From contig NZ_CP107954.1 of the NCBI RefSeq assembly GCF_036067295.1, positions 2,046,001-2,110,000 of the forward strand: a DNA stretch of 64,000 bases. Direction: 5' to 3'. The DNA comes from Kribbella sp. NBC_00382. GTDB taxonomy: Bacteria; Actinomycetota; Actinomycetes; Propionibacteriales; Kribbellaceae. A program made the translations under genes and the position numbers. A model generated the notes under the pieces. It had not been told where the DNA came from and ran no database searches. It saw only the letters and a list, made by a program, of their open reading frames with translations. Positions 51,454-64,000 of the stretch are shown piece after piece (the first letter of the stretch is position 1; every line of letters starts with the position of its first letter).

Positions 51454-52032
51454 CTAGCCGAAAGTGAGCGACCAGCTACCAGCGTGGGCCGACAACCGGA
51501 CCACCGACAGCGGCCGTACGTCGACATGCCGCAGCGACTCAGCAGGCGCGTCGAGCACGTACAGCACAGCTGCCCGGACCACCGCCGGATGCACCACCGC
51601 AGCCACCGTACGCCGATCCGCCTGGCCCCGGCTCTCGTTATCCACAGCCTCGGCGCGAGTCAGGTCCCCGAGCCAATCCGCCACCCGAGTGATGACGTCG
51701 TTCTCGGTCTCACCGCCGGGCGGAGCGGTGTGCGGCCGCTCGAGCCAGGTCGCGACCGCACCCGGCGATGCCTCGAGCAACTCCTCGAGCTCGCGCCCGG
51801 TCCAGTCGCCGTACTCCCGATCCCGCAGCGCCGGCGCAACGACGGGCGCCAGCCCAAGCGCCGACGCGGTGGCCAGCGCGGCCGTTTCCGGTCCGGCGTA
51901 CACCTCGTCGGCGACGATCTTCAGCTCCCGGGCCGCCTCGACCCCGGCTGGATCCGGCGCGGCGTCGCCGCCGAGAACGAGTCCCCGCAGAGCAGGGGTC
52001 AGCGCGTGCGCGACCAGCGTCAGGGACGTCAA
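51454..52032 (-). CDS. Histidine-phosphatase-superfamily protein of the cobalt operon
   Basis: 192 aa. It follows the CobC/phosphoglycerate-mutase fold with DREYGDWTGRELEEL and a second catalytic His in AAVVHPAVVRAAVL. The first motif, usually RHG, reads LVAHALTP, so the phosphate-binding Arg is missing while the His remains. The cobalamin-riboswitch operon context suggests an alpha-ribazole-phosphate-phosphatase-like role or a derived cobalt-related function. It overlaps cbtA by 4 nt. Confidence 0.8.
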   Translation of the reverse strand: MTSLTLVAHALTPALRGLVLGGDAAPDPAGVEAARELKIVADEVYAGPETAALATASALGLAPVVAPALRDREYGDWTGRELEELLEASPGAVATWLERPHTAPPGGETENDVITRVADWLGDLTRAEAVDNESRGQADRRTVAAVVHPAVVRAAVLYVLDAPAESLRHVDVRPLSVVRLSAHAGSWSLTFG

Positions 52033-52799
52033 GCGGCAACCACCTCAGAGTCGACCTTCGCCGTACGACGGTCGATCGCCGCCGCGTAGCCGAGCCCGAG
52101 GAGTAGCCAGAGCGTGGTCTGGGTGCCCAGCGAGGCCAGCCGGAACTTCCAGAGCAGCGTAGCGGGGAACGTCTCCGGAACCTCGTTGATCGCGGGCAGC
52201 AACAGGTACGCGGCGACCACGGTCACCAAGAACGCCGCTCCCCCGACCGCAAGCCGGATCCAGGGTGCCGTGCCGAAGCGGGCCGACCAGCGCGACGCGG
52301 CGACACCGGCCCAAACCGCGAGCAGGCCGATCACCAGGGTCAGCAGGTAGGTGATCGTCCGTTTGGTGATCGTGTCCGGATCACCGACAGCGGGCGGGTT
52401 CGGCGGGTACTTCAAGAAAGGTACGAGCACGATCCCGACGTACCCCGCGGCAGCGAGCCCGAGGGCGGCGTACGAGTCACTGGAAGTGCGCAGGCGACGG
52501 CGCAGGAGGGTGAAGCCGACGGCGAAGATGCCGCCCAGCGCAACGCCGTACAGGGAGGTGGCCAGGAACAGCCCGAATCGCTGGCCGTCGCGGCTGACGA
52601 GGGGCTTCTCCTCGGCGTCGTGGCTGTGCTCGGCGGTCGAGCCGTCGTCGTGGCTGTGCGCGGCCGCGTTGGCCTCTTCGATCGCGATCGCGGAGTCGAT
52701 GTGCGGTTCGCCCATCACGTACGCGAAGGTTCCGGCCAGCAGGCCGGCGAAGAGTCCGACGATCAGTCCGCGCACCAGGAGGGATCCGAAGGTGCGCAT
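52029..52799 (-). CDS. cbtA: CbtA family cobalt transporter subunit
   Basis: 256 aa with five to seven membrane helices. The first helix GLIVGLFAGLLAGTFAYVMG is followed by a His/Asp-rich extracytoplasmic loop (AAAHSHDDGSTAEHSHDAEE), typical of CbtA metal capture. The later GIVLVPFLKYPPNPPAVGD segment is a strong family signature. With CbtB it is predicted to import cobalt for B12 synthesis. It starts 40 nt after the cbtB stop. Confidence 0.92.
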   Translation of the reverse strand: MRTFGSLLVRGLIVGLFAGLLAGTFAYVMGEPHIDSAIAIEEANAAAHSHDDGSTAEHSHDAEEKPLVSRDGQRFGLFLATSLYGVALGGIFAVGFTLLRRRLRTSSDSYAALGLAAAGYVGIVLVPFLKYPPNPPAVGDPDTITKRTITYLLTLVIGLLAVWAGVAASRWSARFGTAPWIRLAVGGAAFLVTVVAAYLLLPAINEVPETFPATLLWKFRLASLGTQTTLWLLLGLGYAAAIDRRTAKVDSEVVAA

Positions 52800-52839
52800 G
52801 GCAGTCCTGTCGTTCAGAGAGGTGGTACTACGGCAGGAC

Positions 52840-53043
52840 TCAGTGGCACGGAACGCCGAGCAGGTGCCGGCCGTCGTGCATCAGCTCGTGCAGGTACATG
52901 CCGGAGCGCGACAGCGCACCCTGGTCGAAGCCCACCAGGTAGGCGAGCATCAGCGCCAGTACGACGGTGACGAGGGCGATCGCGAGCAGCCGGGGCGAGA
53001 TCGCCGGGACTGCGACTGAGCGAGCAGGCGTGGTTGCCGACAT
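52840..53043 (-). CDS. cbtB: CbtB family small cobalt transporter subunit
   Basis: 67 aa with one membrane helix (LLAIALVTVVLALMLAYLVG) and the C-terminal His-rich tail YLHELMHDGRHLLGVPCH that defines the CbtB family and probably binds cobalt. ATG 53043 is preceded by AGGAGG about 6 nt upstream. It is the first gene behind the cobalamin riboswitch. Confidence 0.93.
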   Translation of the reverse strand: MSATTPARSVAVPAISPRLLAIALVTVVLALMLAYLVGFDQGALSRSGMYLHELMHDGRHLLGVPCH

Positions 53044-53084
53044 CGGAGACCTCCTAGGGAAGTGCGCGTCCCTAATCGAAAGGC

Positions 53085-53180
53085 TGCTGGTGCCTGAGCG
53101 TCCTGACTCACGAGCAAGCTCGTTCACAGTGGCGCGGCCGTACCGGTCTCTCACCGGTTTCCCTCATGGCACCGCAGGTT
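53085..53180 (-). ncRNA. Cobalamin riboswitch controlling cbtB-cbtA
   Basis: Read on the minus strand, GGTGCC (53173-53168) pairs with GGCACC (53094-53089) to close the aptamer. Between them are GAGGGAA followed by CCGGTGAGAGACCGGT, the B12-box core GCCACTGT (53133-53126), a GAACGAGC/GCTCGT arm and GAGTCAGGA (53109-53101). These pieces and their order match the AdoCbl-class cobalamin riboswitch. It ends about 40 nt before the cbtB start and probably lowers cobalt uptake when B12 is plentiful. Confidence 0.9.
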
Positions 53181-53233
53181 GTCCCCCGAAAGGTAGTCGC
53201 CCGCTTCCACCGTGGTCAACGCGCAGGCATGGC

Positions 53234-56200
53234 TCAGGTGGGAAAGATCACCCGTACTCCGTGAGCCCGCACCAGCTGGCCGGCCTCGATGATCAGCTGC
53301 CGGGCCAGCTTGTCGGACACGCCGCGCAATCCGGCGACGACGTCCGGAGCGGCGCTGCTCAGCGTGACCAGGTCCGGAACCCCAGCCCGGACGAGTTCGA
53401 CCGCCCGGGCCTTCCCGACCCCCTTGACCGCCGTCAGCGGCAGCTCCGTCCGGGCTCGCGACACCACGGCGGGGCCGGTGGTCAACGAGGGCCGGTCCGG
53501 GATCCGGAAGCGTGGCAGGTGGATCTCCGGTGCCATCCTCAGCCGTCCACCCAGGCGTACCCGATCGGTACCGCAGGTCGGGCAGCTGGTGAGCGTGGCC
53601 GGCCGCCCGGCTGGGGTCGTGACCGCGACAGGTCGGCGTACCGGCCGGTCTTCGCCGCAGGTCGAGCAGTAGCACTCCTCGCCGTCCGGCCCATCGCCGG
53701 CCGGGGTGGACGGGCAGAGGCCATCAGCAGGCAGCGGCGACGCGATGGGGACGCCCTCGTCCAACTGAACCGACACCCCGGTCATCGTCAGGTCGCCAGG
53801 AGCCTGCGAGACGAAATTCAGCGCGACCTGTTGCGCGGTACCGCAGGTCAGCGACAGGCCGGACAGCTCCACCACACCACCCGCCGGTACTACGAACCGC
53901 AGCCGCGCGACCGCCGCGCCCGCCGGCACAGTCCCGCTCATCGCACGGTCCTCGAAGTCCAGCGGATCGAGCTGCAGCGTCAGAGCGGTCCCGATCGGTG
54001 CCTCGGTCTCATCGCCGAAGCTCACCTCGACCGCCGCACCCGGATCGCTCGCTCGAGCGCTCAGCCGAAGGTCGAAGAAGTCCGCCTGGTCCACCGGCAC
54101 CAACTGAGTCACGAGAGCGTCGGTCGCGCCGGAGTTCGTCATGGTGACGCCCGTACCTGCCGACGGCGTGACCACGGCGCCGGCCGGAGTCCAGGCGGAC
54201 GGCACCGTGGACGCGGCGTCCGCAGTACCGGCCAGCGTCACGCGGTCGACGGCGGTCAGGCCGCCCGGGGTGAAGAACCTGATCTCCACCTGGGTCGAGC
54301 CGGCCGGCGAGGTCACCACGAGTTCGTGCCGGGGGACGTGCTCCAGCGCGGTCTGCCGATCCGCGTCGAACGAGGTGACGGGTATCCGGTCCGTCCGGCC
54401 GAGAGCACAGGCCGAGCCGCGCCAGATCAGCTGAGCGACGGCATCCTCGTCCTCACTGATCCCGTCGAAAGCGAACCGGTACCGGGTAGCCGCCAGCACC
54501 CCGACAGCCTGCGAGATCGCGGCCGGCTCCAGCACCTTGTGCTCACGACGCTTCAGATCGCCGAGCAGCGCGAACACCTCACCGGTCGACGGGAAGGCGA
54601 AGGGCTGGACAGCGCCGGCCGTCAGCTCCCAGTCCACCGGTTGAGCGTTGCCCAGCGTCAGCAACTGCGCTCTGGCCCCGTCCTCGAGCGTCACCACGGC
54701 GTGCGTCCCGGCCGGGCTGACGGCGATCTTGGCGCCGTCAGCGGTGTTGTCCATGACGGCACCGCTCTGCTCGATCAGAGCCCGTCGGCGGACGTCGATC
54801 GCCAGTACCGCGCCGTCCTGGATCACCAGACCCAGTTCGCCGGCCGGGTCGACGCCCAGGCATTGCGGACTCGAGCGAGTCGGCAGGTCGAGCCTCCCGG
54901 CCGGCGTCAGGTCGTTCGCCCGCAGGAACTGCACGGTCTGCTGGCCGAGGAAGATCACTTGACCCCTGGACGACACAACCGCCACGTCGACGGCTCCGTC
55001 GGTCAACTCGACCGAGAGCGTGTTGCGCGACAGCAGGCCGGACCGATCGGGGTAACGCATCAGCGTCGCCTTGCCGTCGCCCCGGAGCAGGAGATAGATC
55101 GCGCCGTCGGCACCGGTCGCGAGTGCTCGCGGGCTGCCGATTACCCGGTCGGACGGCAGCTTGGACCAGTCCGGTGCGCCCCCGCGCAGGTCCGCCCAAC
55201 CGACGAAACGCACGACGGCATCGTTCGCGGCATCCCAGCAGAGCAGCAGGACACCCGATCCGTCCGCCACCCGGACCACGTCCAGCACCACTTCCGGTAC
55301 GCCGATCGCCGGGCCGATCGGCCGCCCGTTCACGGTCGAAACGAGCTGCAGCACGGCTCCCGAACCACTCCCGCCGGCCACCCTGCCGATCGCGGTCAAC
55401 GCGACCACAGCCTGTGTGCCGGACGGATCGATCGCCATCGCGACCGGATCCCCCGCCGTCCCCAGATCCGCGTCGAACCCTGGTTCGCGGGTGAGAACGT
55501 CATAGGAACGCAGCCGTCCGCCCTGTGCGCCGACCAGCACGGTGCCGCTGTCCGGCAAGAAGGCCGCGGCCCGGCCGAGCTTGACGTTCTCGCTGCCGAG
55601 TTCGGCCGGTCCGCCGATCCCGGTACCGACCCGGTACCAGTCGTCGAAGTTGCCGTTGGCAACATGCTCGGCGGTCACCTGGGCAACGCCCTGTCCGGCC
55701 GCTGCCGCATTGACCGCGCCGGCGACTTCCGGGAAGTTCAGGTCGAGGTCGATCGACCCCTGCGCCGCGAATCGCTGCAGCGACACCGCGACCTCCTCGG
55801 TGCCGGCGGCGACGCGCAACTCCAACGGCATCTGGAAGGTCGTGGTCAGCTGCCGCAATCGCAGTTGCGCGCCGGCTCCGCCGACCGATCGCCAGGACAA
55901 CCCACCGTCGGTCGTCCGCTGCAGACCTTCGGCCGCCGGCCCGGCACCCCAGGCTGCGACGCCTTCCTTGGCCTGCACGATCAGCCAATGCCGTACGCCG
56001 CCGGGCAACTCGAGCTCGGCGGGCAGGACCACGTTCATCCAGGTCGGCGATCCGGCCGAGTCACGGGTCAGGGTCAGCTCCGCCGGCTTGCTCAGTGACG
56101 ACACCCGCCCTGGCTTGCCGTCCAGGTCGTTCACCAGGTCGATCGCCAGCTTCGCCTCGGCGGTCACCGACGTCAGCAGCAGGTCGACGGAGCTCGCCAC

Positions 56201-57136
56201 CTCAGCGGCATCGAGCGTGAACGGCTGCGCCAGCGGCCCCGCACCCGACACCTCCACGTGCTCGGTCGCAACCGGCGTCAACGCCCCGAACACGACCGTG
56301 CTCGCCTCGAATCCACCTTGCACCCGGCCGGCCGTCCCACCCGGTACTGCGATCAGCCCCGGCGGCATCGCGATGCTCAAGGCCTGGGCCGCGCTAGGCG
56401 TACCGGCGTACTGGTAGCTGGACTGGATCATCGTCAGGTCAGGCGGTGTTGCCGAGACCGCGACGGTGTAGTCGATCTCCCAGCTGAGGTCGAGGCGGGA
56501 GATCGAGTTCGACGTGATGACCAGCGGGACCACGTAGCAGCCGTTGTCGAGCGGGAGGTCCGGCAGCATCGTCTGCAGGACAGCGGAGAAGTCCGGGGTG
56601 GTGACCGGTTCGACGAGGTCTCCCGGGCGGTTGTAGAAGACCGGACCGCCTTCGATGGCGAGGGTGAGGTCGCTGGGTGGAGAGACGACCTTGAGGGTGG
56701 AGATGTCCGGGCCCACACCCGCGATCCGCAGACCCGTGACGGTCAGGCCGGGCAGGTCCATCGTGTTGGCCAGTTGCAGGGCGGGCCCGTCCCCGAGACC
56801 GCCGGAGGCGTTGACGCCGAGGTACCCGCCACCCAGGTCGACCAGCAGGGTACCGGCCCCGGTCAGGCCGCTGCCGGTCAGCGCCGCCAGCTTCCGGCGG
56901 GCGTGGAGCTCGATCTCCACCGCGCCGGTGGGCAGCACCTTGTTCGCGCCGAAATCGCCGACCGGTCCGGGGAAGGCGAGCGTCTCCAGGAATCGCCGGC
57001 CCGGGTCCACGCTGTGCGGCGTCACCGTCAGCACGGCGCGGCTGACCACCGCGCCGGCCGGGAGCCGGCGCAGCACCAGCCGGCGGAGCCGCTCGAACGG
57101 CGCCGACTGTCCCGTGTACCTGGTCCGGATCTTCAT
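53234..57136 (-). CDS. 1300-residue tail-cluster protein with propeller-like, CxxC and helix-hairpin-helix regions
   Basis: 1300 aa, function unknown. Residues 1-500 are beta-rich, with a bacterial Asp-box-like TTDGGLSW near 400. About 520-870 holds repeated strand motifs of a propeller type (VLVGAQGGRLRSYDVLTREP, AIDPSGTQAVVAL, ATGADGAIYLLLRGDGKATL, GVDPAGELGLVIQDGAVLAI). About 900-1130 is beta-sandwich-like. Near 1150-1190 two CxxC pairs (CYCSTCGED and CPTCGTD) could form a zinc ribbon. The last ~65 residues are a helix-hairpin-helix pair (VKGVGKARAVELVRAG, LRGVSDKLARQLIIEAG). Last gene of the tail cluster, 4 nt after the fibre-like gene. A tail-tip or DNA-binding role is speculative. Confidence 0.8.
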   Translation of the reverse strand: MKIRTRYTGQSAPFERLRRLVLRRLPAGAVVSRAVLTVTPHSVDPGRRFLETLAFPGPVGDFGANKVLPTGAVEIELHARRKLAALTGSGLTGAGTLLVDLGGGYLGVNASGGLGDGPALQLANTMDLPGLTVTGLRIAGVGPDISTLKVVSPPSDLTLAIEGGPVFYNRPGDLVEPVTTPDFSAVLQTMLPDLPLDNGCYVVPLVITSNSISRLDLSWEIDYTVAVSATPPDLTMIQSSYQYAGTPSAAQALSIAMPPGLIAVPGGTAGRVQGGFEASTVVFGALTPVATEHVEVSGAGPLAQPFTLDAAEVASSVDLLLTSVTAEAKLAIDLVNDLDGKPGRVSSLSKPAELTLTRDSAGSPTWMNVVLPAELELPGGVRHWLIVQAKEGVAAWGAGPAAEGLQRTTDGGLSWRSVGGAGAQLRLRQLTTTFQMPLELRVAAGTEEVAVSLQRFAAQGSIDLDLNFPEVAGAVNAAAAGQGVAQVTAEHVANGNFDDWYRVGTGIGGPAELGSENVKLGRAAAFLPDSGTVLVGAQGGRLRSYDVLTREPGFDADLGTAGDPVAMAIDPSGTQAVVALTAIGRVAGGSGSGAVLQLVSTVNGRPIGPAIGVPEVVLDVVRVADGSGVLLLCWDAANDAVVRFVGWADLRGGAPDWSKLPSDRVIGSPRALATGADGAIYLLLRGDGKATLMRYPDRSGLLSRNTLSVELTDGAVDVAVVSSRGQVIFLGQQTVQFLRANDLTPAGRLDLPTRSSPQCLGVDPAGELGLVIQDGAVLAIDVRRRALIEQSGAVMDNTADGAKIAVSPAGTHAVVTLEDGARAQLLTLGNAQPVDWELTAGAVQPFAFPSTGEVFALLGDLKRREHKVLEPAAISQAVGVLAATRYRFAFDGISEDEDAVAQLIWRGSACALGRTDRIPVTSFDADRQTALEHVPRHELVVTSPAGSTQVEIRFFTPGGLTAVDRVTLAGTADAASTVPSAWTPAGAVVTPSAGTGVTMTNSGATDALVTQLVPVDQADFFDLRLSARASDPGAAVEVSFGDETEAPIGTALTLQLDPLDFEDRAMSGTVPAGAAVARLRFVVPAGGVVELSGLSLTCGTAQQVALNFVSQAPGDLTMTGVSVQLDEGVPIASPLPADGLCPSTPAGDGPDGEECYCSTCGEDRPVRRPVAVTTPAGRPATLTSCPTCGTDRVRLGGRLRMAPEIHLPRFRIPDRPSLTTGPAVVSRARTELPLTAVKGVGKARAVELVRAGVPDLVTLSSAAPDVVAGLRGVSDKLARQLIIEAGQLVRAHGVRVIFPT

Positions 57137-57140
57137 CGGG

Positions 57141-58091
57141 TCAGACCTTGAGCAGGATCATGACCGCGAGCTCGTCGCCGTAGTCGCCTTCCAGGTAGTC
57201 GGCGACCTCGCCCACCTCGGGCCCGCCGTGCACCGCGTCGCCCGGGAACCAGACAGCTGTCCGGTTCAGGTCGAGGTGCTGGACCTGCAGGTTCGCCGGC
57301 GCCGGGATGCGGACCTGGTTGTCGTTGCCGAAGGCGGGGCCGGCCGGGAAGTTGACCGTCTTGCGTGGCCGGAACTGGAACAGCAGGTCGTTCCAGTCAC
57401 CGCTGGCCTTCAGCTCCTCGACGGTCGTGTTCTGCTTGCAGCAGCGCTCGAACCAGGGCGAGTGGCAGTACGTGTCGTCGCCGAACTGGTCGTTCGGATC
57501 CTTGAAGAACGCCTTCCAGAACTCGGTCTCCAGGTCGTCCAGCGACGAGCTGTCCGTGTACGGCACCTGGTAGCGGGTGAGAAGGTCGGAGAACTGGATG
57601 CCCAGCTCCGGGAAGTCCTTCGGCTGGATGTCGACCGCGACCTGGGCGTTCGCCGCGTTGCGGACCCGGACCCGGCGTTCGCTGCGATGGTGCAGATAGA
57701 ACGTCGCGAAGGCCAGCCGGGTCTCGTCGTCCTCGCGGCAGACCACCTTGAAGTAGTCCAGCTCGTAGACGTCCACCAGCGGGCAGCTGCCGAGGTTGTG
57801 CACCAGCTCGGTGATGTCGTCCTTCTTGAGCATCTTGAAGAGCTGCTGGTACCCGGTCCGGCCGCGGACCTGGTCGAGCACCCGGCGGGTCACCTCGTCG
57901 GTGAGCGCGTTCAGGTCCTTGCCCTCCAGGTGATCCGCATCGTCGGCCGTCGCGACGTGGGTGACCCCGTCGGCGGCTGCCTGCGACGTGGTCCGGATGT
58001 CGGCGTAGATCTTGCGCTGGACGGTGTTCCAGTCCTCGGCGGTGAGCAGGTCACCGGGTGCCCGCTCGACGTACGGCGTGGTCTCGGTCAT
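57141..58091 (-). CDS. Tail-fibre-like or cluster-specific protein
   Basis: 316 aa. The N terminus YVERAPGDLLTAEDWNTVQR, then KIYADIRTTS, resembles the start of baseplate-attached tail fibre proteins. The middle has LVDVYELDYFKVVCREDDET and FATFYLHHRSERRVRVR; a Cys-rich turn YCHSPWFERCCKQ lies near residue 205. The C-terminal part repeats beta segments (VQHLDLNRTAVWFPGD). No fold is certain. ATG 58091 overlaps the large repeat protein stop (ATGA), so it belongs to the same operon. Confidence 0.78.
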   Translation of the reverse strand: MTETTPYVERAPGDLLTAEDWNTVQRKIYADIRTTSQAAADGVTHVATADDADHLEGKDLNALTDEVTRRVLDQVRGRTGYQQLFKMLKKDDITELVHNLGSCPLVDVYELDYFKVVCREDDETRLAFATFYLHHRSERRVRVRNAANAQVAVDIQPKDFPELGIQFSDLLTRYQVPYTDSSSLDDLETEFWKAFFKDPNDQFGDDTYCHSPWFERCCKQNTTVEELKASGDWNDLLFQFRPRKTVNFPAGPAFGNDNQVRIPAPANLQVQHLDLNRTAVWFPGDAVHGGPEVGEVADYLEGDYGDELAVMILLKV

Positions 58092-61000
58092 GGGTTCTCT
58101 TCCTCCGTCTGTGCAGGTCCGGCCACCCGGTCCCTGGTCACGTCTGCATGGATGCCGGCCGCCTTCGCGAGGCCGACGCCGATCGGTCCGGGCCGCAGCA
58201 GGGCGGCCGCGAGCGATGGCAGCGGCGGCCCGAACACGGTCTGCCGGGCGGACTCGAAGCGGCCACCGGGGAAGGCCACCTCGAGGTCGTAGACGGCCGG
58301 GCCGGACGCCCGGCCGGTGATCCGGATTTCGTTGCCCCAGGCGCCTTCTTCGGCGGCGGACAGCTCGATGAAGCCGGCCAGCCCGGGCTCGGACAGGAAC
58401 ATCCGGGCGGCTGTGCCCGGCCGGCCGCCCGTCAGCCGGACGGGTTCGCGGAACGGCAACGCGACGGCCCGCCAGCCGATCGGCACGACGTCGGCGAGTT
58501 TCGCGATCACCAGCTTCGAGCCGGTCTGCAGATCGTTCAGCCGATCGACCAGGAACTGTTCGTCCGTCAGCGGCTCGGCGACCACCCCGGCATGCAGCTC
58601 GGGCACGGCCGCGCCGAACCGGCCGTTTCCGGTCGCGGTGGCACCGGCACCGCCGGCTCCGAAGGCGACGCCGAAACGGTCGTCCAGCTCGGCCGGGAGA
58701 TTGACCGAGAACGCGCCGGCCTGGTGTGAGTCCCAGTCGACCCGGATCTCCGCGGTCGGCCGACGGACCACGGCGGCAGCGAAGACGGCGTTGGGCTGCG
58801 CGCCCTGCGGGCCAAAACAGCTCAGGCCGAAGACGGCTTCCTCGCTCCCGGCGCCACCCGCGAAGCGGTCGGCCTCGAAGTACGCGGCATCGAAGCGAGC
58901 GGCGCGGCACTCCGAGAAACTCCACCCGTTCAAACCGCGCCGTACGCCGAGCAGGCCGGTGCCGGCCGTCTCCACGGTCACCGCGGGCCGTGAGGCCCCG
59001 TTCTCGGTGATCACCGCGCGTACCGTGCCGTCGTCGGCGAGCTCGATCGTGCAGGTGCCGCCGGCGCCGATCGCCTCGCGGATCCGGATCGACCAACCGG
59101 CCACCGGGTCGGCGATCCGGGGGTCGGACACGCCGGCCCCAGTGGTCAGGGTCACCCGCCCGGTCACGTCGGAGGCGCCGGCGTTGCGGAAGCGCAGAAC
59201 GGTGCCGTGGGCAACGGGTCCGGACGCCCAGGCGGGCTGGGCCGGATACTCGGCCACCTCGAGGAAGCGCAGCGGGATCACTTCGAGCGCACTGTCCGCG
59301 CCATCGGCCGGGGAGGTGAGGCGCAGCTTGTCCTCCGGTGTGAGGGTCGCGAGGCCGGGAGCGATCTCGTTGATCGCGGCAACGATCTCGCCGGCGAAGG
59401 TGGTGGCTGGAGTGGCGCCGGCGATGTCCACGTCGAAGGGCGGCTCGCCGTCGACCGCCAGACGCAGTACGGATCGCTTGGCGAGGTCGAGCGGGGCGAG
59501 GAGGTCCACGGTGCCGTCGATGACAGCTGGGCCCGGCGCCTTGCCGGTGGCTGACGTTTCGCCGAAGAGGAGCGGGGCGGCGTCACCGGTACCGGTGCGG
59601 CTGACCTCGATGCGACTGGACAAACCGCTGGTGGGCGAGGCGATCCGCAGAGCCAGACCGCTCGGGATCGCCACCGATGACGCGTTGGCGGTGGTCGCCG
59701 CATTGATCGCGGTGGCCAGCTCCGAGAGCGTCACCGCCTCCGGATGGGCGGCCGCCGTGGTGAGGTCCACAACCACTGCTGGGCCGCCATCGACCGCGAC
59801 CGTCAACTGGTTGGCAATGGACAACTCGACCGGGCCGGTGAGGTCGATTCGGCCGATCACCTCTGCCGGGGTGGCCGCGCCACCTCGGTAGGTGCGCGGC
59901 GCAACGATGCCCAGGACTTCTGGAGCGACGTCGGTACCGGTGGTGGGAGGCGACAGCTCCAGGCGGCTGGTGGCACCGACGGTTGGCGAGGTGAGGAGCA
60001 GGTGGATGCCGTCGTGGGCGGCTACCTGGGCGACCAGCGCGACGTTGATGGCGGCGACCAACTGACTGAGGCTGCGTGGCGTTGGGCCGGCTGGATCGCC
60101 GAGCGGGATGTCGATCGCCGCGCCGCCGTCGACGGCCAGCCGGATCGCGGCGTCGGCAGGCAGGGCGACTCCGGCGGACAGGTCGACCGTGCCCGTGAAT
60201 CGGACTCCGCCTGGCGCGGCACCACGGGTCAGCCCCGGCTCGACCTTCAGGACCTGGTCCAGGGCATCCCGCTGCCGGGGGGCCTCCAGCACGATCGAAG
60301 GCACTCGGCCGCTCGTCACGGCGGCCGAGCGAAGCGTCAACGTCCTGCCATCGGTGAACGCAAGCGCCGGCACCGTCTCGCCAGGGGGCGGGGCCGGCAG
60401 TGCGGCTTCCACGGCGGTGTTGATCTTGGCGACGATCTCGGTCGGGGTGGTGGCGCGGCTGCGGGGGCCGGCGCAGTCGACGTCCAGGACGAGGCCGTCG
60501 TCCGTCGCGATGCCCGTCGGGGTCGTCTCGGTGAGGTGGATCCGGAGGTAGTGGTTGGTGCTGAGGTCGGCGCCGCCGCTCAGGTCGTTCTTGCCGCTGA
60601 GCTCGGCCGCCTCGCCCGCAGTACCGACGGCGCGAGCGGCCGTGAATCCCAGGACTGACTGAGCAGCGTCATCGGTGACCCGGGCCCGCGTCAGGTAACG
60701 CCTGCGGCTCGTACTGCGTTGCGGTACGACCCGCACGCTTCCACCGGCGCCATCCGTCGGTGAGACCAGGATCAGGTGAGCGCCGTCGTCACTCGCGATC
60801 TCCTGCCCGACGGCGGCGTTGATGGCGGTCGCGAGTTCGTCCACGGACGCCTGGGTCAGATCGGCGACTCCCCGGCGAAGGTCGACCTCGACCGGCTCGG
60901 CGCCGTCGACGGCCAGCGACAGGGTGTGACGAGCGGACAGGTCGACCTTCGCCGACAGGTCCGCAGCACCGGTGAAGGATGCGGTCACCGGCGGTTTGCC

Positions 61001-62470
61001 CCGGCTGCTGCGGGGGCGCAGGCCGAGGATGTCTTCCGCGACGTCGCCGGCGACTTCCTCGACACGCAGCCGGCCGGCGGGTCCAGGGCTCGACGAGGTC
61101 AGGGTCAGTTTGCTGCCGTCATGACTGGCGACCGCGTCGCCCAGACCTTCGTTGATCGCGGCAACGAGCTCGGCGGGCGTAGTGGCGGCCGGGTCGGTGC
61201 CGGCCAGGTCGAGGGTGACCGGCGGCTCCGCGTCCACGGCGAGCCGGAGACTCGACCGGTCCTGGAGATCGACCCCGGCGCCGAGATCCCGATCGCCGGC
61301 GACGCGCGCACTTCGGGCAGCCTCGCCCACCGCGATCGGCGCGATCTGGCCGAACAGCCGCGCTGTCGCGTCCTGGGCTGCCGGGGTCTGGAAGGCGATC
61401 TGCCCGGCCGCGCCCGGAGTCGGCGAGGTGAGGGTGAGGAACCGGCCGTCGTCCGTGGCGACCGGCACCCCCAATCCGGTGTTGATCGCGGCAACGATCT
61501 CGCCTATCTCGACCGCGGCTGGATCCGCTGCCGCGCCGGCGCAGTCGATCTCGGCCAGCTGATTGCCATCGACAACTATTCGCAGATAGCGCGGACCGGT
61601 CAGATCGACCGCGGTGCTGAGATCCACCCGGCCGGTCACGACGGCATGGCTGGGTTCGGCGCCGTGATAGAGCCTGGGCCGAAGCCCGAGCACGAGATCC
61701 GCCGCGTCACCCGGCCCGTCGTCGACCGTGATCGCCCCGGCCGCGCCGGCCGTCAGCGAGTTCAGCCGCAACCGGCCGCTGGACAGGCTCGCGATCCCTG
61801 CCACGCCGAGCTGGTCGTGGATCGCGGCGACGATCTCCGCCGGCGTCACCTTCGCGGGATCGGCCGCGCCGGTGGTCAGCTCGATCGACTGCGCCCCGCC
61901 ACCGTCGAGGGCGATCCACAGCGTCTCCCGCGCGCTCAGGTCGACGCCGCCGCGCAGGTCGACCTCACCGGCAAGGGTCGCGCGCGTCGCGTCCGCGCCG
62001 TACCGGTCAACAGCGGGTTGCCCGAGCACGAGCGTGGCCGCGTCAGCGCCGGACGGGAACGAGGTGACGAGGATCGGCTCACGCCCTGGCGTCCACCAGC
62101 TGTCCAGCGCCTCGTCCTCGATGTGCAGTCCGAGCGTCTCGGCGGTGATCCGCAGGATGCCCTGAACGGTGACCGTGCCGTCGAGGAAGGTTTTCACGTA
62201 GCGCAGCAGGTGCTCGCGGAACTCCTCCACCGACTCGTCCGGCCGCGGCGCCAGCCCGTACAGCGCACCGAACAACCTGAGGTCCTGGATCACCGATTCG
62301 CCGGCGTCGGCGAAGTCGACCCAGTGCGATCGCATCACCGCGACCAGGCTGTTCTCGGCCGCCTGCAACTCACCGCCGTACGCGTCCGCCAGCGCCCGCA
62401 GCGCGGACGGATCGCCCAGCGTCCGGAACGTCGGCGGCAGGTTCGCGAGGATGCGGTCGGCCTTAGGCAC
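58088..62470 (-). CDS. Large tail-I-like protein with about eight internal repeats
   Basis: 1460 aa. Residues 1-130 look like the tail protein I (baseplate wedge) domain: ILANLPPTFRTLGDPSALRA, then FREHLLRYVKTFLDGTVTVQ and GILRITAETLGLHI. About residues 145-1065 comprise roughly eight tandem units of 110-133 residues. Each has a VDLS strand, an L-x-L-A-VDG turn, the helix (E/Q)(I/L)VAAIN (near 213, 325, 435, 547, 680, 804, 919 and 1029), DGxxLxLTSP and a closing LG segment. The units recall flagellar-hook-type inserts and probably form a long rod or decoration. The C-terminal ~390 residues form a separate domain resembling tail-sheath-like beta structure (EEGAWGNEIRITGRASGPAV). GTG 62470 overlaps the J-like gene by 8 nt. 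Confidence 0.82.
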   Translation of the reverse strand: MPKADRILANLPPTFRTLGDPSALRALADAYGGELQAAENSLVAVMRSHWVDFADAGESVIQDLRLFGALYGLAPRPDESVEEFREHLLRYVKTFLDGTVTVQGILRITAETLGLHIEDEALDSWWTPGREPILVTSFPSGADAATLVLGQPAVDRYGADATRATLAGEVDLRGGVDLSARETLWIALDGGGAQSIELTTGAADPAKVTPAEIVAAIHDQLGVAGIASLSSGRLRLNSLTAGAAGAITVDDGPGDAADLVLGLRPRLYHGAEPSHAVVTGRVDLSTAVDLTGPRYLRIVVDGNQLAEIDCAGAAADPAAVEIGEIVAAINTGLGVPVATDDGRFLTLTSPTPGAAGQIAFQTPAAQDATARLFGQIAPIAVGEAARSARVAGDRDLGAGVDLQDRSSLRLAVDAEPPVTLDLAGTDPAATTPAELVAAINEGLGDAVASHDGSKLTLTSSSPGPAGRLRVEEVAGDVAEDILGLRPRSSRGKPPVTASFTGAADLSAKVDLSARHTLSLAVDGAEPVEVDLRRGVADLTQASVDELATAINAAVGQEIASDDGAHLILVSPTDGAGGSVRVVPQRSTSRRRYLTRARVTDDAAQSVLGFTAARAVGTAGEAAELSGKNDLSGGADLSTNHYLRIHLTETTPTGIATDDGLVLDVDCAGPRSRATTPTEIVAKINTAVEAALPAPPPGETVPALAFTDGRTLTLRSAAVTSGRVPSIVLEAPRQRDALDQVLKVEPGLTRGAAPGGVRFTGTVDLSAGVALPADAAIRLAVDGGAAIDIPLGDPAGPTPRSLSQLVAAINVALVAQVAAHDGIHLLLTSPTVGATSRLELSPPTTGTDVAPEVLGIVAPRTYRGGAATPAEVIGRIDLTGPVELSIANQLTVAVDGGPAVVVDLTTAAAHPEAVTLSELATAINAATTANASSVAIPSGLALRIASPTSGLSSRIEVSRTGTGDAAPLLFGETSATGKAPGPAVIDGTVDLLAPLDLAKRSVLRLAVDGEPPFDVDIAGATPATTFAGEIVAAINEIAPGLATLTPEDKLRLTSPADGADSALEVIPLRFLEVAEYPAQPAWASGPVAHGTVLRFRNAGASDVTGRVTLTTGAGVSDPRIADPVAGWSIRIREAIGAGGTCTIELADDGTVRAVITENGASRPAVTVETAGTGLLGVRRGLNGWSFSECRAARFDAAYFEADRFAGGAGSEEAVFGLSCFGPQGAQPNAVFAAAVVRRPTAEIRVDWDSHQAGAFSVNLPAELDDRFGVAFGAGGAGATATGNGRFGAAVPELHAGVVAEPLTDEQFLVDRLNDLQTGSKLVIAKLADVVPIGWRAVALPFREPVRLTGGRPGTAARMFLSEPGLAGFIELSAAEEGAWGNEIRITGRASGPAVYDLEVAFPGGRFESARQTVFGPPLPSLAAALLRPGPIGVGLAKAAGIHADVTRDRVAGPAQTEEENP

Positions 62471-64000
62471 CCGGGGCCTCCTGGCAGGCGACGTCCGCCG
62501 CGGTCATGTCGAGCGCGATCCACCACTGCTCGCCGTCGACGGTCGCCGAGACGCTGAAGGTGCCCGCCTCGATCTCCTCGTCGGTGGCCGGTACGCCGGT
62601 AGGCCCGAGCAGCAGCGAACGGTCGGGGATCCGCGCACCGGTGGGAGCCTGCGAGCCGGCAGTCTCGACTGCGGCCGTCAGCGCGGCGCGCAGACCATCG
62701 GCGGGCGCGGTGGCGACCGCGGTGAGCAGAGCGTCGATCAACGTGCCGTCACCGGTATCGCCGGACAGGTCGGCCCGGGCGACGACGACATCCACGATGG
62801 TGGCGTCGAGGATGTCGTCGACACCCTTGACCGCGGTGAGCAGGGCCGCGCCGTCCGCGGCGCCACCGGCGGTGAGGCCGTCGACGACCGCTTGCAACGC
62901 GGCCACCACGTCCGCGGCGATCTGGGCCTGCCCGGCCGCCGAGATGTTGGGGGTGATCGTGGCCGTGATCCGCGGGGTGATGAAGACGTACCGCGCGACC
63001 AGCGTCGCCAGTACTCCGGCCGCCCGGGTCTCGTGCACGGCAGCCGTCAGACCGGGCAGCCGTTCGGGCTCGGCATCTACCACCACGGTGACCGTGCCCG
63101 GGTCCGACCGGTTGGCCGGCGGGCCGTTCGGATCGAAGAACTCGACCGGCTCGCCGTCGCCCTCCAGGATCACCCGTTGGAGCGCCATGATCGTCGCCTT
63201 GCCCAACGCGCCCAACGCCGCCCGGGCCCGGTCGCGCAGTTCTTCGTCCGTCTCATCGGCCGCCGCGCGGATGGTCGGATCGAGATTCGTGACGCGTTCG
63301 ATCCCACCCACCCGCTGGGACATCTCGTTGATCACGCCGGCCGCCACCAGCCCCGCGTCACCCGCGAACCCGATGTCGGCCCGGACCGGTACGTCGATCC
63401 GCACCTGGCCGCGCTGCAACGTCCGCTGCTGGGTCGAGACGAAGACGACTCCACCACCGGACAGCCTGGTCCCCACCGGGATGGTGATGTTGCCGTCGAA
63501 ACCGGTGGAGCGGAAGAAGGTGATCAGCCCTTCGGCGAACTCGGCCGACTTGCGATGGACATCCAGAATCGACACCACGTAGTCCAGCGACTTGCCCTCC
63601 GCGGTATCGACGAACGCGGACTCGTAGGCCAGGTTGATCTGCTGGTAGACCGTGGCGATCTCCCGCCCGACCGCCTCGGACAGCGTCCGGGTCACGCTGC
63701 CGACATTGATGTCGCTCAGCGGCGAGCGGCTCTCGATCCGGAAGTAGTCGACGTAGAAGGTGGTGTCGCCCTTCGGCAGGGTGCCGTCCTCGAGCCAGAT
63801 CACCACATTCGTCCCGGCGCCGAAGGTGAAGTCGATGTCGAGCACGAACGTCCGGGGCTTGCCGTCCTCCGCGGTACCGGTGATCCCGCGGACGCCGCCC
63901 GCCGGCTCGGCCAGCGGGTAGGTCAGCACCTTGACGTCGAACTCGATCGGCTCGTTCACGACGCCGCCGACGACCGAGGTGAGGATGTCGTCGACCAGAT
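62463..64000 (-). CDS. Baseplate J-like protein, 5' end off window
   Basis: At least 512 residues; the frame runs open through the right edge, and the residues before GTG 63959 (LVDDILTSVVGGVVNEPIEF) look coding, so the start is probably outside. Baseplate-J (gp6/gp47-like) features: DYFRIESRSPLSDINVGSVT, SEAVGREIATVYQQINLAYE, AEGKSLDYVVSILDVHRKSA, FDGNITIPVGTRLSGGGVVF, and DETDEELRDRARAALGALGK (the conserved ED/R-R-A helix). J-like proteins ring the baseplate of contractile tails and extracellular injection systems. Its presence shows that this is the distal end of a larger tail cluster lying to the right. Confidence 0.87.
   Translation of the reverse strand, partial: LVDDILTSVVGGVVNEPIEFDVKVLTYPLAEPAGGVRGITGTAEDGKPRTFVLDIDFTFGAGTNVVIWLEDGTLPKGDTTFYVDYFRIESRSPLSDINVGSVTRTLSEAVGREIATVYQQINLAYESAFVDTAEGKSLDYVVSILDVHRKSAEFAEGLITFFRSTGFDGNITIPVGTRLSGGGVVFVSTQQRTLQRGQVRIDVPVRADIGFAGDAGLVAAGVINEMSQRVGGIERVTNLDPTIRAAADETDEELRDRARAALGALGKATIMALQRVILEGDGEPVEFFDPNGPPANRSDPGTVTVVVDAEPERLPGLTAAVHETRAAGVLATLVARYVFITPRITATITPNISAAGQAQIAADVVAALQAVVDGLTAGGAADGAALLTAVKGVDDILDATIVDVVVARADLSGDTGDGTLIDALLTAVATAPADGLRAALTAAVETAGSQAPTGARIPDRSLLLGPTGVPATDEEIEAGTFSVSATVDGEQWWIALDMTAADVACQEAPGA

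Follow-up and report, generated by a model that had tools for sequence, protein, structure and literature searches.

What kind of machine is encoded by four closely packed genes at the end of a 64,000-nucleotide stretch of a Kribbella chromosome? The stretch, which we call the window, comprises positions 2046001-2110000 of the single contig (8,486,922 bases) of Kribbella sp. NBC_00382. An earlier reading of its sequence alone had taken the four minus-strand genes for the distal end of a domesticated phage tail or contractile injection system (CIS). We read the DNA 55 kb further to the right and found that they form the distal end of a minus-strand cluster of 18 genes, from w53234 to about w79082 (w marks window coordinates; some start codons were chosen by us). 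The cluster is a bounded 26-kb accessory block that belongs to a cross-phylum family, and is not a one-off relic. Its predicted product is a headless contractile system, under constraint, that is outside the published definition of extracellular contractile injection systems (eCIS). We think it probable that the block builds a headless contractile particle that injects lineage-specific cargo, and that it represents a distinct, ATPase-free lineage of CIS with a swappable cargo slot.

The four genes are one end of a contractile-tail cluster

All four open reading frames (ORFs) described in the sequence-only reading as overlapping or abutting are present on the minus strand: 53234-57136 (1300 amino acids (aa); p1300), 57141-58091 (316 aa; p316), 58088-62470 (1460 aa; I1460), and 62463-64043 (526 aa; J). 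Neighbors among them overlap by 8 and 4 bp or are separated by a 4-bp gap. These are not chance ORFs, because p1300 has 55 matching proteins (its own copy included) and I1460 has 447, and because the ratio of nonsynonymous to synonymous substitution rates (dN/dS) against K. catacumbae is 0.11-0.21 for all four genes. The gene read as baseplate-J-like is indeed one (PF04865, E-value 2e-15; PHROG 6, E 6e-33), and it continues past the window's end at 64000. It also holds that the two largest proteins do not belong to the standard parts list.

The other 14 genes lie upstream on the same strand. In transcription order, the first encodes a BTAD regulator (w79082-78093) and the second N455 (w78012-76645), which was not matched by any row of our libraries. 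These are followed by the sheath (w76648-74978; PF04984 E 4e-14, PHROG 279 E 4e-43), the tube (w74966-74409; PF18906 E 0.013), a chaperone-like protein (w74449-73955; PHROG 344 E 0.026), p409 (w73958-72729), an adaptor (w72725-72186; DUF6046 E 7e-4, under the cut-off, and DNA_circ_N E 0.03), a 138-aa helical protein (w72157-71741), and a 1371-aa protein (w71736-67621). Then come p278 (w67624-66788), the hub (w66791-65766; PHROG 196 E 3e-11), the spike (w65769-64963; PHROG 9992 E 2e-10, PF04717 E 1e-4), a PAAR protein (w64901-64554; E 0.006), and gp25 (w64537-64040; PHROG 975 E 2e-17), and after these J, I1460, p316, and p1300, the last gene of the block. Among the 18 genes, neighbors overlap by 4-41 bp or are separated by gaps of 3-80 bp. 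There was no Pfam match in our copies of N455, p409, p278, p316, or I1460. A search of PDB sequences left the tube unmatched and gave only chance-level matches for N455 and the adaptor. The mark of a contractile tail is that genes for a sheath, a hub or spike, gp25, and J lie within one cluster, and here all of them do, by Pfam and PHROG matches.

The sequence-only reading had proposed to look to the right for a sheath, a tube, a LysM adaptor, a VgrG-like spike, and an AAA ATPase. Sheath and tube are there, with a separate hub and spike, PAAR, and gp25; a LysM domain, a single VgrG fusion, and an AAA ATPase were not found in the block. The view of a domesticated, headless tail is supported by these genes. 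Head genes next door were to point to a prophage and missing tube or spike genes to a relic, and neither situation was encountered.

The 1371-aa protein begins with a region that resembles the adaptor, followed by OmpA (E 1.5e-5) and PG_binding_1 (E 2e-13). The OmpA match is just under the cut-off in our copy and over it in two scanned relatives, while PG_binding_1 recurs in the family. p409 follows the chaperone, which is the usual place of a tape measure, and its C-terminus is conserved in most of the complete relatives; we guess that it is the tape measure. From its position only, we guess that N455 is the cap.

To define the borders, we compared three cluster-free Kribbella genomes (G036, G008, and G024). 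They match our genome up to w79255, to the right of the window, and again from w53221-53260 (left border, 53221..53260). The accessory stretch is about 26.0 kb long and encloses the 18 genes only. Against K. catacumbae, the fastest-evolving genes are p278 (dN/dS 0.49) and p409 (0.60), and the other 16 range from 0.06 to 0.37 (the adaptor's value was computed from a partial copy).

The cluster is conserved across phyla

A profile of I1460, scanned against GTDB representatives, gave 21 loci, whose taxa we took from record titles. The actinobacterial hosts are Kribbella, Occultella, Nocardioides, Actinopolymorpha, Cellulomonas, and a metagenome-assembled genome (MAG) of Blastococcus. The others are MAGs of Anaerolineae and other Chloroflexi, MAGs of Acidobacteria, Paraglaciecola, proteobacterial MAGs, Geoalkalibacter, and a MAG of Eremiobacterota. 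The shared gene order spans Actinomycetota, Chloroflexota, Acidobacteriota, Pseudomonadota, and Geoalkalibacter, and a sheath is present in all 16 family genomes searched (as split pieces in two).

We counted the best ORF for each component across these loci and 14 stretches upstream of them. This gave 20 loci for J, 19 each for gp25, I1460, and p316, 17 each for hub and spike, 15 each for sheath, tube, chaperone, PAAR, and p1300, and 7 for the regulator; many of the gaps are contig ends. In the Eremiobacterota locus, the part of the cluster with the sheath is on the opposite strand, and the interval from there to gp25 showed no hub, spike, or PAAR. Spike and PAAR of L009 are separated by a gene for a subtilase. 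Frames are irregular in L020 (I1460) and in L023 (J and p1300).

Within the genus its presence is patchy: of 37 Kribbella genomes, 2 have a close sheath, our own included. Across 396 genomes of Actinomycetota, the 1460-aa family had two matches, which are our protein and a partial one (residues 3-118). Searches of plasmids with our sheath and that of a sister cluster gave only distant matches in Bacillus and Paenibacillus. We found no description of this gene set in open-licence PMC papers.

The sister clusters are a second, more distantly related type, seen in L110 (G036), L111 (G057), and L112 (G047), with identities of 35-40% for the sheath, 42-43% for the tube, and 41-52% for the chaperone. 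L110 is near a CHAT-TPR protein, and in L111 and L112 a low-match protein of 1145-1150 aa adjoins the adaptor.

The markers of eCIS were not found

According to Vladimirov 2023 (PMC10020575), an AAA+ ATPase and a Pvc16_N terminator are invariably encoded in eCIS regions, and Sarris 2014 (PMC4122934) describes the ATPase as always present. DUF4157 was added as a core domain by Geller 2021 (PMC8213781). Li 2025 (PMC12210884) excluded clusters with Cis13 and Cis14 (fibre, tape-measure) but without the Cis15 ATPase as likely phages. The Chloroflexota CIS of lineage IId have an ATPase gene (PMC12998442).

As controls we used 10 actinobacterial eCIS loci that we found via Pvc16_N. A general Walker A+B pattern matched in 8 of them. 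An eCIS-type AAA+ motif, which was derived from those same 10 controls, matched in all 10, in none of 38 family stretches, and in none of three sister-cluster stretches. There was no Walker-A ORF common to at least three family loci, and none of the 14 matches to PF00004 that were listed for our genome (of 30) is in the block. Pvc16_N (DUF4255) had no match in our genome in a search that matched 24 of 296 genomes of the phylum; a further search was also negative for our genome, with its controls silent. eCIS_core (DUF4157, PF13699) was not found in our genome. Of 15 family genomes, 7 do have it, each time on a different contig from the cluster; draft contigs could hide neighbors. The eCIS_core motif was found in none of the 38 family stretches, as compared to 6 of the 10 controls. 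Because AAA+ ATPase, Pvc16_N, and eCIS_core were not found, we rejected membership in eCIS as they are defined in these papers.

The sheath groups apart from the eCIS and phage sheaths in our comparison. In a tree of 28 sequences and 546 columns, with five of the 10 controls, the eCIS form a clade with 100% support on a branch of 1.8. The family and the sister type together split from eCIS and phages with support of 95 (82 for the family alone).

The block nevertheless has much in common with eCIS such as Afp, PVC, AlgoCIS, and the Streptomyces CIS. As far as genes alone can tell, it is a headless chromosomal cluster with sheath, tube, spike, PAAR, gp25, and J. BTAD regulators are a known feature of the eCIS shell, propellers are found in eCIS fibres too, and in AlgoCIS an enlarged baseplate protein forms the spike cage. 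In contrast to eCIS, besides the three markers, it has one tube gene, separate genes for hub and spike, an adaptor without LysM, a giant repeat-bearing protein of 1460 aa, and a sheath on a separate branch.

The Tme group of Streptomyces davawensis deserves a separate comparison. Nagakubo 2024 (PMC11126660) reports a sheath clade whose hosts are spread over Proteobacteria, Chloroflexota, and Actinobacteria, and a cluster that includes a peptidoglycan-binding protein; both this host spread and such a protein recur in our family. The group is defined there by a long tme gene with an N-terminal DUF4157. We did not find a long DUF4157 effector gene here, and by that description our family would stand apart. 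Two of our eCIS controls, L127 (G201) and L129 (G277), have an eCIS_core ORF of more than 2300 codons in the locus, which is the Tme-group signature (PMC11126660). The sheaths of G201 and G277 group with eCIS and not with the family of the Kribbella block.

The block is very unlikely to be a prophage

Phage_portal and TerL_ATPase had no matches in the whole genome, while both families were matched in control genomes. No head gene or integrase was recognized within the bounded block. We rejected a prophage: our genome-wide search covered just these two of the terminase, portal, and capsid families, but the borders enclose only 18 genes. A tblastn search of 50,697 phage records with the 1460-aa protein gave no match, and a scan of viral contigs gave it no confirmed relative. 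Among the matches listed, J and the sheath are 25-33% identical to phage proteins over no more than 44% of their length.

A likeness to contractile-tailed phages (phi812, XM1, E217) and R-type tailocins shows in the best PDB sequence or fold matches of the sheath, J, the N-terminus of p1300, and the repeat domain, most of which are phage parts. Unlike these systems, the block has no head, packaging, or integration gene, and its 1460-aa protein is unmatched in phage records. The type VI secretion components TssJLM and ClpV had no Pfam match among the 18 genes, which is the part of the genome searched for them. No lysis enzyme was recognized among these genes with Pfam or PHROG, although holins are hard to detect; the 1371-aa protein matches endolysin PHROGs solely through its PG_binding_1 domain.

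A giant baseplate protein and its distal neighbors

The description of the 1460-aa protein as tail-I-like survives only as a weak match of residues 3-119 to a PHROG baseplate protein (PHROG 1160, E 0.035). These lie in a helical N-terminus (residues 1-130; 62081..62470), which was modeled as helical with low confidence. From about residue 150 to 1080 (59231..62023) there are eight repeats of about 110 residues, of a flagellin IN/FliD/sheath-like domain. A script identified seven periodic 'IN' motifs, and we placed the eighth by eye, near residue 675. Fold matches of a single repeat support this domain type. Flagellin_IN matched in 4 of 16 members, and our copy has no such match. Rows of the alignment from beyond the near Actinomycetota are 43-49% identical to our protein. 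The nearest named homologs of I1460 (among the best 120 of its 447 matches) and of p1300 come from Kribbella. I1460 likely forms the baseplate wedge.

p316, a conserved protein that lacks a Pfam match or a PDB sequence match, is likely a fibre or a peripheral baseplate protein. p1300 is modular and fibre-like. Its residues 1-470 (55727..57136) comprise beta-sandwich domains, are conserved across phyla (alignments A5 and A7), and are likely the docking part. A model of residues 1-520 from AlphaFold 2 (AF2; mean predicted local distance difference test score, pLDDT, of 80) resembles phage baseplate and tail-tip chains. A beta-propeller region (about residues 530-850; 54587..55549) is recognized by profile matches to propeller structures and is not in the alignment for L014, L024, or L009. 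Beta-propellers were reported in eCIS fibres (PMC12923769), so this combination has a precedent. Residues 1156-1194 (53555..53671) contain two CxxC pairs with a match to DUF5679 below the cut-off (E 5e-4) and are likely a zinc ribbon, and residues 1233-1285 (53282..53440) are a helix-hairpin-helix (PF14520, E 2e-7, over the cut-off). In two Chloroflexi, the homolog of p1300 ends in a family-2 glycosyltransferase domain (L012:16272-21149 and L015:15554-20446; Pfam E 9e-19 and 1e-19).

A variable slot before the hub

The position between the 1371-aa gene and the hub gene is readable in 17 loci, our own included, and its content varies. It is a member of the p278 family in our locus, L005, L006, L007, L008, L023, and, weakly, L009 (the family has ten matching proteins, our copy included). 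It is a subtilase in L012 and L015; the subtilase of L009 sits elsewhere. The slot holds a phospholipase D (PLD) in L017, a tyrosinase in L022, and a HEAT-type protein in L014, L025, and, weakly, L013. In L024 it is a 206-aa protein without a family, in L018 long ORFs without a family, and in L020 a beta-helix/TIG protein. We propose that this slot, which in our genome holds the fast-evolving 278-aa protein, is likely the cargo slot.

Surroundings and composition of the block

In the three cluster-free Kribbella genomes, the site of the block is occupied by a gene that we read by eye as a LysE-like transporter (L109 in G036, L113 in G008, and L114 in G024), so the presence or absence of the block may reflect a replacement event. 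We found no direct repeats of at least 11 bp at the block's ends and hence propose no mechanism of mobility. The left flank (52029-53154) comprises the gene for CbtA, a cobalt transporter subunit (52029..52799, minus strand; PF09490 E 3e-79; present in 36 of 38 Kribbella genomes), and, upstream of it, a small ORF that is CbtB-like by eye. CbtA also flanks the block in K. catacumbae. The G+C content is 0.69-0.73 over the window part of the block versus 0.65-0.70 to its left, and the G+C content at third codon positions is 0.76-0.96 for the block's genes. The 18 genes have a single TTA codon, which lies in the gene for the 1371-aa protein; this is too little to argue from, so we dropped the idea of control by bldA.

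Alternative explanations

Several points weigh against our reading of the block as a distinct, cargo-carrying CIS. The matches for tube, PAAR, chaperone, and adaptor are weak, the cap or terminator was not identified in the block, and the naming of a tape measure is guesswork. The particle and its cargo are predictions from the genes, and peptidoglycan-binding domains do not prove docking. Seven of the 17 slots are p278-type and three are HEAT-type, all without known activity, and L009 holds a p278-like gene plus a subtilase at another place; p278 could thus be a structural protein. In L018 and L020, the ORFs in the slot may be split-off pieces of the 1371-aa protein. Also, the downstream flanks share no further recurring genes, except between the two Kribbella, so we saw no separate cargo operon.

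The block could instead be a divergent version of a published eCIS, possibly of the Tme group, whose ATPase or terminator is encoded elsewhere or is too diverged to see. The similar cross-phylum sheath clade with a peptidoglycan-binding protein (PMC11126660) would fit this, as would the AAA proteins somewhere in 15 of 15 genomes tested, the eCIS_core proteins elsewhere in 7 of 15 family genomes, and the BTAD regulators that also adjoin eCIS. We consider it unlikely, since eCIS_core is missing from our genome and in the other 14 never shares a contig with the cluster (draft contigs can hide neighbors), and since the Tme-like controls G201 and G277 have eCIS-type sheaths. A tailocin, released by lysis and killing by membrane puncture without cargo, would explain why neither an AAA+ ATPase nor head genes were found and why fibre-like genes stand at the distal end. 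Yet no lysis enzyme was recognized in the block, the variable slot can hold enzymes, an adaptor-like protein has a peptidoglycan-binding domain, and the set is conserved across phyla with no near phage relative, which makes a tailocin quite improbable. That the block is merely the decaying tail of a prophage, without function, we find hard to believe: its structural families are of phage-tail origin and its presence is patchy (2 of 37 Kribbella genomes), but its 18 genes are intact, tightly packed, and under purifying selection, and the gene set is conserved across phyla. Its genes are intact and constrained, and we rejected a relic.

A proposed machine

Our preferred explanation remains a headless contractile injector with a swappable cargo. 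From gene content, order, and conservation, we infer how it might assemble, dock, and find its target. The adaptor and the 1371-aa protein would likely connect the tube to the hub, and, given the OmpA and PG_binding_1 domains of the latter, they may also let the baseplate dock on peptidoglycan. I1460 would likely form the wedges, with its eight repeats as arms or as a cage around the spike, while p316 and p1300 are likely target-sensing fibres. Contraction of the sheath would then push tube, spike, and tip outwards. The gene in the slot before the hub likely encodes the cargo: p278 here, and a subtilase, phospholipase D, tyrosinase, HEAT-type protein, or others in relatives.

A broader idea, which we offer tentatively and regard as possible rather than probable, is that the family is a separate class of injectors, in at least five phyla, that needs neither an AAA+ ATPase nor a Pvc16 cap. 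It would dock on peptidoglycan with its baseplate, shield its spike in a cage of flagellin-type repeats, and serve as a universal launcher whose payload (protease, phospholipase, tyrosinase, or other) is swapped by lineage. Because surveys recognize such machines partly by genes that are absent here, this cross-phylum lineage may have been filtered out. The variable slot provides a list of candidate cargoes, and the family lends itself to the study of the ATPase's role and of how payloads get loaded.

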